Assembly: GCF_900188395.1 (NCBI RefSeq)
Contig: NZ_FZOB01000008.1
Span: 1 to 64,000 of the forward strand
Source: Desulfurobacterium atlanticum
Lineage (GTDB): Bacteria; Aquificota; Aquificia; Desulfurobacteriales; Desulfurobacteriaceae
Direction: 5' to 3'
Length of the DNA: 64,000 bases
Shown here: positions 6,981-25,564 of the stretch, piece by piece
How positions within the stretch are numbered: position 1 is the stretch's first letter
Layout: each line of letters begins with the position of its first letter
Translations under genes and position numbers: made by a program
The notes under the pieces: model-generated
Databases searched by the model: none
Told to the model about the DNA's origin: nothing
What the model saw: only the letters and a program-made list of their open reading frames with translations

Positions 6981-7057
6981 GGCGACGTGGCTCAGGTGGT
7001 TAGAGCGGGCGGCTCATACCCGCCAGGTCGGTGGTTCAACTCCACCCGTCGCCACCA
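6981..7057 (+). tRNA. tRNA with anticodon CAT: elongator Met or the lysidine-type Ile2
   Basis: 77 bases with a complete cloverleaf: acceptor GGCGACG paired with CGTCGCC, D stem GCTC/GAGC, anticodon stem GGCGG/CCGCC, loop CTCATAC (anticodon CAT), T stem GGTGG/CCACC, discriminator A and encoded CCA. G1-C72 pairing rules out the initiator, which is elsewhere (57469-57545). The acceptor stem and the loop base C38 look more like elongator tRNA-Met. The position directly before tilS, whose only substrate is tRNA-Ile2(CAU), argues for Ile2. The sequence alone does not settle which it is. Confidence 0.95.
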
Positions 7058-13976: not shown

Positions 13977-14004
13977 TTGCAAATATATCCATTTTGAATA
14001 TATT
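13977..14004 (+). promoter_or_regulatory. Promoter of tRNA-Arg(ACG)-tadA
   Basis: TTGCAA (13977-13982), a 16-base spacer and TATATT (13999-14004), 14 bases before the tRNA. The -10 is identical to those of the other tRNA genes in the window. Confidence 0.65.
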
Positions 14005-14018
14005 TTAGCACCGTAAAT

Positions 14019-14095
14019 GCGCCCGTAGCTCAACTGGATAGAGCGTGGGACTACGGATCCCAAGGTTGCAGGTTCGACTCCTGCCGGGCGCGCCA
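14019..14095 (+). tRNA. tRNA-Arg (anticodon ACG)
   Basis: 77 bases: acceptor GCGCCCG with CGGGCGC, D stem GCTC/GAGC, anticodon stem TGGGA/TCCCA, loop CTACGGA (anticodon ACG), T stem GCAGG/CCTGC, discriminator G and encoded CCA. A34 of this tRNA is the standard bacterial substrate of TadA, which makes inosine so that one tRNA reads CGU, CGC and CGA. The tadA gene starts 20 bases after the CCA. Confidence 0.97.
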
Positions 14096-14115
14096 CACTT
14101 TAATGGAAAAATCAG

Positions 14116-14574
14116 ATGGAAAATCACCTTTTCTTCCTTAAAGAAGCCGTAAAAGAGGCAAAAAAAGCATTAAAATTTGGAGAAGTTCCAATCGGAGCTG
14201 TTATAGTAAAAAACAACAGGATAATTGGAAGGGGATTTAATAAAAAGGAGTTTCTCCAATCTCCCACAGCTCACGCGGAAATCATTGCAATTGAAGATGC
14301 AGCAAAAAGACTAAACTCCTGGAGACTTACAGGAACAATCCTTTATTCAACTGTTGAACCGTGCATTATGTGTTGCGGTGCAATTATTCAGGCAAGGATA
14401 GAGAAGGTTGTTTATTCAACACCTGACCCGAAATTTGGAGGAGTTGAAAGCCTTTTTTCTATATTCTCAAATGGAAACCTCAACCATAAAGTAAAGGTTG
14501 AAAAATATCCTCTTGAAGAACCAGAAAAGCTTCTGAAAGAGTTTTTCCGGAATCTTAGAAAAAAACAGGTATAA
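14116..14574 (+). CDS. tadA: tRNA-specific adenosine deaminase
   Basis: 152 residues. It deaminates A34 to inosine in tRNA-Arg(ACG). The zinc and catalytic motif HAE is at residues 53-55 (proton-relay Glu55) and PCIMC at 82-86 (Cys83 and Cys86 bind zinc). KFGGVESLF and the C-terminal LLKEFFRNLRKK agree with TadA rather than a free-nucleoside deaminase. The start ATG at 14116 has no Shine-Dalgarno sequence; an upstream ATG at 14103 is out of frame. With no terminator after the tRNA, the two are probably one transcript, and tRNA 3' maturation would leave a very short leader on the tadA mRNA. Confidence 0.95.
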   Translation: MENHLFFLKEAVKEAKKALKFGEVPIGAVIVKNNRIIGRGFNKKEFLQSPTAHAEIIAIEDAAKRLNSWRLTGTILYSTVEPCIMCCGAIIQARIEKVVYSTPDPKFGGVESLFSIFSNGNLNHKVKVEKYPLEEPEKLLKEFFRNLRKKQV

Positions 14575-14601
14575 TTTCCAAAACCGCTTTAGGGAGGCAT
14601 T

Positions 14602-15780
14602 GTGAAACCTTTAAAAGAAAGACTTATGACCCCAGGACCAACTCCAGTTCCTGAAAGAGTGCTTCAGGCTATGGCATCACACACAATGTATCACAGGTCA
14701 CCTAAATTTAAAGAAATTTTTGCAGAAACTATAGAAAGACTTAAAAGACTGTTCAAAACAGAAAGGGATACACTTATACTAACATCTTCCGGAACAGGTG
14801 CAATGGAAGCTGCTGTTTCCAATCTCTTTTCTCCTGGCGATAGTGCAGTTGTCATAGTTGGCGGAAAGTTCGGTCAGAGATGGAAAGAGCTGTGCGAAAC
14901 CTTTGGAGTTAATCCTGTAGTTATAGAACTTGAATGGGGAAAGTCGGTAAATCCTGAAGATGTTAAAAAGAAAATTGAGGAAAACAGAAATATAAAGGGT
15001 GTTCTGGTTCAGATATGTGAAACATCAACAGGAGCTTTCAACGATGTTAAAGCTCTCGGAGAGATAACTGCCAGATATGATAATGTAATTCTTGTAGCTG
15101 ATGGAATTACAGCCTTTGGTGTTTATGATATACCTGTTGATGACTGGAACATAGATGTTGCCATTACAGGCTCACAAAAAGCTCTGATGACACCACCGGG
15201 ACTTGCTGTAATAAGCTTAAGTGAAAAGGCAAAATCAAGACTAAGCAGGAAAAAATGGGCATACTACTTTGACCTATCCAAAGAGATAAAGAATCAGGCT
15301 AAAGGGCAGACAGCATACACTCCGGCAGTAAACCTTATTGTAGGTCTTAATGAAGCACTTAAAATGATAGAAGAGGAAGGACTTGAAAATGTAGCTAAAA
15401 GACACGAAATACTTGCAAAATCAGCCCGCGCCGGTATAAAGGCTCTTGAACTTGAACTGCTCCCTGAACATCCTGCAAACGGCGTAACAGCAGTAAAACT
15501 TCCTGAACACATTGATGGACAAAAGTTTGTCTCATGGATAAGAGACAGACTCGGAATAGTTATTGCAGGAGGTCAGGAACACCTTAAAGGAAAAATTTTC
15601 AGATTGTCCCACATGGGATACATAGACATTTTTGACCTTTTAACTCAACTTGAAGCTGTTGAGTTTGCCCTGACAAGAATGGAGATGTATCCAGCTTACG
15701 GAAAAGCTGTTGCAGCAGCAATGGAAACCTATATAGAACTTGTTCATCAATCCCCAATCAAATATAGAGGAGAGAGGTAA
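14602..15780 (+). CDS. Class V PLP aminotransferase (serine/alanine-glyoxylate type)
   Basis: 392 residues. It is homologous to alanine-glyoxylate, serine-glyoxylate and serine-pyruvate aminotransferases. It opens with the family mark MTPGPTPVPERV and has the phosphate-binding turn SSGTGAMEA (about 62-70), Asp of VADGIT (about 165-170) and the PLP lysine in TGSQKAL (Lys193). In autotrophic thermophiles this family often supplies glycine from glyoxylate or interconverts serine and hydroxypyruvate; which donor is used cannot be told. GGGAGG precedes a GTG start. The stop codon sits in the loop of a terminator shared with the convergent DUF39 gene. Confidence 0.88.
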   Translation: MKPLKERLMTPGPTPVPERVLQAMASHTMYHRSPKFKEIFAETIERLKRLFKTERDTLILTSSGTGAMEAAVSNLFSPGDSAVVIVGGKFGQRWKELCETFGVNPVVIELEWGKSVNPEDVKKKIEENRNIKGVLVQICETSTGAFNDVKALGEITARYDNVILVADGITAFGVYDIPVDDWNIDVAITGSQKALMTPPGLAVISLSEKAKSRLSRKKWAYYFDLSKEIKNQAKGQTAYTPAVNLIVGLNEALKMIEEEGLENVAKRHEILAKSARAGIKALELELLPEHPANGVTAVKLPEHIDGQKFVSWIRDRLGIVIAGGQEHLKGKIFRLSHMGYIDIFDLLTQLEAVEFALTRMEMYPAYGKAVAAAMETYIELVHQSPIKYRGER

Positions 15781-25487: not shown

Positions 25488-25564
25488 GCGCCCGTAGCTC
25501 AGTAGGATAGAGCGCGAGATTCCTAATCTCGAGGTCGCAGGTTCGATCCCTGCCGGGCGCACCA
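25488..25564 (+). tRNA. tRNA-Arg (anticodon CCT)
   Basis: 77 bases: acceptor GCGCCCG with CGGGCGC, D stem GCTC/GAGC, anticodon stem CGAGA/TCTCG, loop TTCCTAA (anticodon CCT, reads AGG), T stem GCAGG/CCTGC, discriminator A and encoded CCA. The acceptor and T stems are identical to those of tRNA-Arg(ACG) at 14019. No terminator separates it from the HD-GYP gene 38 bases downstream. Confidence 0.97.

Follow-up and report, generated by a model that had tools for sequence, protein, structure and literature searches.

Neighbouring genes for tRNA-Arg(ACG) and its editing enzyme TadA in Desulfurobacterium atlanticum: a probable remnant of an ancient bacterial tRNA cluster

Why should the gene of a tRNA stand directly before the gene of the enzyme that edits its anticodon? 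TadA converts A34 of tRNA-Arg(ACG) to inosine, and Ser tRNAs are not TadA substrates. In the heat-loving bacterium Desulfurobacterium atlanticum the two genes are neighbours, and the layout could either tie the amount of enzyme to the output of its substrate or be what is left of an older gene order. The locus was analysed in a window of 64,000 nt (NZ_FZOB01000008.1, positions 1 to 64,000), taken from a source genome available as a 1.74 Mb draft in 23 contigs. Its features are collected in Table 1.

Table 1. Features around tRNA-Arg(ACG) and tadA, in window coordinates.
Feature	Position	Strand	Remarks
Promoter-like TTGCAA-N16-TATATT	13977..14004	+	ends 14 nt 5' of tRNA-Arg(ACG)
tRNA-Arg(ACG), encoded CCA, single copy	14019..14095	+	ARAGORN
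20-nt spacer / tadA leader	14096..14115	+	without terminator or promoter match
tadA, tRNA adenosine-34 deaminase, 152 aa	14116..14574	+	ORF and profile match
Class V aminotransferase-like gene	14602..15780	+	27 nt 3' of tadA

The product of the tadA reading frame is TadA by several lines of sequence comparison. The translation matches the NF008113 profile over nearly its full length (E 1.3e-41, 142.2 bits against a curated cut-off of 150), its best solved relative is 1wwr, a TadA entry (E 2e-46), and it carries the zinc-site motifs HAEII (HAE) and EPCIMC (PCxxC). The TadA proteins of Desulfurobacterium, Thermovibrio and other relatives in the Desulfurobacteriaceae with the same arrangement are 65-72% identical to it.

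The original prediction had tRNA-Arg(ACG) directly before tadA on the same strand, 20 bases from CCA to ATG with no terminator, and took it to be the one tRNA on which TadA turns A34 into inosine. The coordinates in Table 1 agree with this, and no terminator-like site was found between the two genes in the window. Among the anticodons read in the source genome, tRNA-Arg(ACG) alone has A34 (a weak match at C10:2634-2707 was left out), and the tRNA-Arg(ACG) pattern has a single match there. The accompanying statement that tadA has no Shine-Dalgarno site was too strong: a weak Shine-Dalgarno-like GGAA lies at 14105-14108, 7 nt 5' of the tadA ATG, and has an AGGAA counterpart in the congeners L006 and L007. 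The leader region also holds an out-of-frame mini-ORF of 12 codons (14103-14141), which begins 7 nt past the CCA and runs into the start of tadA; L005 has a similar mini-ORF, whose TGA shares bases with the ATG of tadA.

The arrangement is a property of the family. In 21 of 22 Desulfurobacteriaceae genomes the gene preceding tadA is that of tRNA-Arg(ACG), and the locus of the remaining one (L023) ends at a contig edge. A survey of related genomes had been proposed as a test of the prediction, and its outcome, along with the pairs found in other phyla, excludes a peculiarity of the source genome. Of the family loci, 20 have enough flank to be judged, and in every one TTGNNA-N16-TAWATT precedes the tRNA, L013 being counted by the motif in its sequence, where the automatic best match is another site. 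The motif sits at -41 to -43 relative to the 5' end of the tRNA and ends 13-15 nt before it; its position is constant while the surrounding sequence differs between loci. Judged alone, the window's own copy (TTGCAA-16-TATATT) scores no better than shuffled sequence. The spacer between tRNA and tadA measures 17-35 nt in most family loci. Five relatives (L005, L006, L007, L009 and L020) have longer spacers, of 52 to 242 nt when the start of the protein match is taken as the end point, a measure that overstates some by up to about 20 nt; a second count gives six relatives with longer spacers, of about 35 to 242 nt. The 242-nt spacer (L020:1253-1494) contains the hairpin-like repeats GCCCTGCTTTTTAAAGCAGGG and CCCCCGACTTTAGTCGGGGG, as if an element had been inserted.

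The downstream side is less stable. tRNA-Ser(CGA) follows tadA in 17 of the 22 family loci and is gone from five, while tRNA-Arg(ACG) is kept in every genome that can be judged. ARAGORN reports no tRNA directly 3' of tadA in the window; in the window's genus, the aminotransferase gene occupies the slot that tRNA-Ser(CGA) holds in other genera of the family. The 23 contigs of the source draft yielded no tRNA-Ser(CGA), which would leave UCG to tRNA-Ser(UGA). GGTATAATTTC is conserved at or near the tadA stop in each of the four genomes of the genus (the window, at 14568-14579, and L005-L007). It possibly serves the aminotransferase gene as the -10 box of a separate promoter, although inspection by eye showed no good -35 box to partner it; the aminotransferase-like gene is also possibly where the tRNA-Arg-tadA transcript ends.

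The fixed position of the promoter (20/20), the mostly 17-35 nt spacer and the lack of a terminator strongly imply that tRNA-Arg(ACG) and tadA share one primary transcript. The single transcript foreseen by the original prediction is thus well supported at the level of gene layout. The layout expected of a mixed tRNA-mRNA operon is present: a common strand, a short spacer, no terminator and a promoter before the tRNA. Such operons exist, as in thrU-tyrU-glyT-thrT-tufB of E. coli, where, as in the window, a protein gene is transcribed behind tRNAs and freed by processing. The two differ in that EF-Tu serves all tRNAs, whereas the enzyme in the window modifies just the one tRNA whose gene precedes its own. 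Units of this kind are not rare in the source genome itself, since 5 of 34 of its tRNAs, drawn from a subset of loci, lie within 60 nt before an ORF. The four others are Thr(GGT), Gly(CCC), Met and Arg(CCU) tRNAs, each with a same-strand ORF 22-38 nt 3' (G000:C3:63679-63752, C3:160669-160741, and window positions 6981-7057 and 25488-25564).

Pairing extends well beyond the family. A scan with a degenerate tRNA-Arg(ACG) pattern followed by TadA motifs, and hence conditioned on pairing, matched at least 119 stretches; ARAGORN and tblastn bore out 118 of the matches listed. They fall in at least 23 named phyla, of which those with a single locus may include binning errors. Two further MAGs with the order Arg-tadA-Ser(CGA), L046 (named Aquificota) and L092, were found. 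A further sample of TadA loci was drawn without the pairing condition and scored for tRNA-Arg(ACG) within 600 nt upstream. Outside the family, 44 of its 178 genomes are paired: Bacillota 13/27, Omnitrophota 10/22, Myxococcota 9/27, Pseudomonadota 7/28, Acidobacteriota 4/26 and Cyanobacteria 1/29. In these unconditioned loci the tRNA lies upstream of tadA on the same strand in 66 of 66 cases. Many lineages hold tadA without the pairing.

The pair is commonly part of a longer gene order, which in its fullest form reads Ser(UGA)-Ser(GCU)-Arg(ACG)-tadA-Ser(CGA)-Ser(GGA)-SRP RNA-dnaX-ybaB-recR. The tRNA part, up to Ser(GGA), occurs in Myxococcota, Bacillota, Poribacteria and others, often with Arg(CCU) added between tRNA-Arg(ACG) and tadA in Bacillota, and with Ala(CGC) added in Poribacteria. 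SRP RNA comes next in 14 of the 18 cluster loci examined, followed by dnaX, ybaB and recR where the flank extends. Myxococcus is a tractable bacterium among those that retain the cluster. Of this order the window has tRNA-Arg(ACG) directly 5' of tadA and lacks the Ser tRNA directly 3' of it.

One section of the cluster is familiar from Bacillus, in which the block tadA-scr-dnaX-yaaK-recR is known, tadA being called yaaJ (PMC10454642), and in B. licheniformis scr lies between tadA and dnaX (PMC3871023). The Bacillus block shows the same tadA-SRP RNA-dnaX-recR backbone that bears the tRNA cluster in many phyla, and neither paper mentions a tRNA-Arg(ACG) upstream of tadA (PMC10454642, PMC3871023). 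The window, by comparison, retains the tRNA-Arg end and is without the SRP RNA-dnaX end. We found no earlier account of the tRNA part of the cluster, or of tRNA-Arg beside tadA, among the open-access papers searched.

Because one order recurs in distant phyla, the cluster appears to descend from a common ancestor and to have been lost repeatedly, and the tRNA-Arg-tadA pair is best read as a remnant of this eroding cluster. Some transfer or regain of the pairing may have occurred as well: the pairing label changes 26 times on the TadA tree, a weakly supported figure, as gains and losses reconstructed from TadA are uncertain for a short protein with many unsupported deep branches. Within Aquificota the descent of the cluster can only be inferred, since the other families lack the pairing (0/19).

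Taken together, the locus is probably a single tRNA-Arg(ACG)-tadA transcription unit left over from the ancient cluster, in which enzyme and substrate are passively co-expressed. A sigma-70-type promoter just 5' of the tRNA would drive the unit. RNase P and 3' processing would then free the tRNA and leave a tadA mRNA headed by about 20 nt of leader, as expected from known tRNA maturation. Erosion of the cluster would have left Arg-tadA-Ser(CGA) in most of the family and Arg-tadA in the genus of the window. Passive co-expression would suffice, and the data do not need a dedicated feedback.

The original prediction went further and suggested that the layout could tie the amount of enzyme to tRNA output. 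In its strongest form, this would mean that the pair is kept by selection because TadA output must track that of tRNA-Arg(ACG), possibly with feedback, in which TadA would bind the tRNA in the primary transcript and so alter processing and its own synthesis. Several observations point this way: tRNA-Arg(ACG) is the sole substrate and is single-copy, the pairing persists throughout the judgeable family genomes even where tRNA-Ser is lost, Pseudomonadota keep Arg without Ser in 6 of 7 cases, and the substrate always comes first. Coupling, however, would predict that the substrate tRNA outlasts its neighbours. Among genomes outside the family, 31 retain both neighbours, 13 only tRNA-Arg and 40 only the downstream tRNA-Ser; these counts are uncorrected for relatedness, and a tree-aware paired test offers too few supported independent pairs. 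As they stand, the counts reveal no preferential survival of the substrate: the Ser tRNAs, none of them edited by TadA, are retained more often. Moreover, tRNA-Arg(CCU) usually intervenes in Bacillota, and many lineages have lost the pairing but not tadA. Since the pair belongs to a multi-phylum cluster of Ser and Arg tRNAs, SRP RNA and dnaX, and short tRNA-ORF distances recur in the source genome, the proposed tie between enzyme and tRNA output is not supported. Selected coupling is not favoured as the reason for the conservation, and we consider it unlikely; feedback from substrate to enzyme is conceivable but unsupported.

The best candidate for a genuine link between tRNA processing and TadA synthesis is found at the other end of the gene, in relatives of the window. 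In seven family genomes (L008, L010, L011, L015, L021, L023 and L024) tadA reads into the same-strand tRNA-Ser(CGA) gene, with its stop codon 25 nt into the tRNA in six of them and 57 nt in one. In the 25-nt type the TadA C-terminus, ERCRSLA, is written by the tRNA gene. Overlap of this kind was seen in 20 of 93 loci with a downstream tRNA among the matches listed from the conditioned scan; in the window the tadA stop does not lie inside a tRNA gene. With the stop inside the tRNA, RNase P cleavage should remove it, and maturation of tRNA-Ser(CGA) should thus leave a nonstop tadA mRNA. A nonstop-mRNA effect of tRNA-ORF overlap has been proposed for selB/selC (Mukai 2021, PMC8124441). That system and the present one both link a tRNA gene with the gene for a protein devoted to this tRNA. 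The family relatives resemble selB/selC in that the ORF shares its 3' end with a tRNA gene and processing would yield a nonstop mRNA, whereas the window has no overlap. The relatives also differ from selB/selC, as their overlapping tRNA is Ser(CGA), a non-substrate, and the substrate tRNA is located upstream with no overlap. One could imagine an ancient operon in which tRNA maturation sets TadA synthesis from both ends of the message: 3' processing of tRNA-Arg, the enzyme's own substrate, would release the 5' end, and RNase P at tRNA-Ser, whose gene includes the tadA stop in many lineages, would make the message nonstop. TadA output would then drop with rising tRNA output, and TadA bound to unprocessed tRNA-Arg might be the sensor. 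We regard such a scheme as improbable.

One may also ask whether tadA might be transcribed from a promoter of its own, inside or after the tRNA gene, which would render the shared transcript unimportant. Internal promoters are common, and the longer spacers of some family relatives could house one. In the window, however, neither the tRNA nor the spacer contains a promoter match, and the site at 13977-14004 is the sole promoter-like sequence before tadA; the 20-nt spacer of the window and the 17-35 nt ones of most relatives leave no room, and the one promoter conserved in position across the family precedes the tRNA. A promoter in the spacer is accordingly rejected, and an own tadA promoter as such seems very unlikely. 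Chance adjacency in a compact genome, for which the frequency of tRNA-ORF neighbours in the source genome (5/34) might speak, is dismissed by the survey counts, as simple arithmetic would place a given single-copy tRNA on one strand and no more than 600 nt upstream in about one of 10,000 genomes of 3 Mb, against 44 of 178 outside the family and 21 of 22 within it.

A unit left by an ancient cluster thus accounts for this locus best. The sole substrate and the enzyme that edits its anticodon are neighbours in a constant order across many phyla, within a cluster that includes Ser tRNAs, SRP RNA and dnaX-recR. The kept, split and overlapping arrangements of this cluster are natural experiments on whether a tRNA modification enzyme is under the control of tRNA processing.
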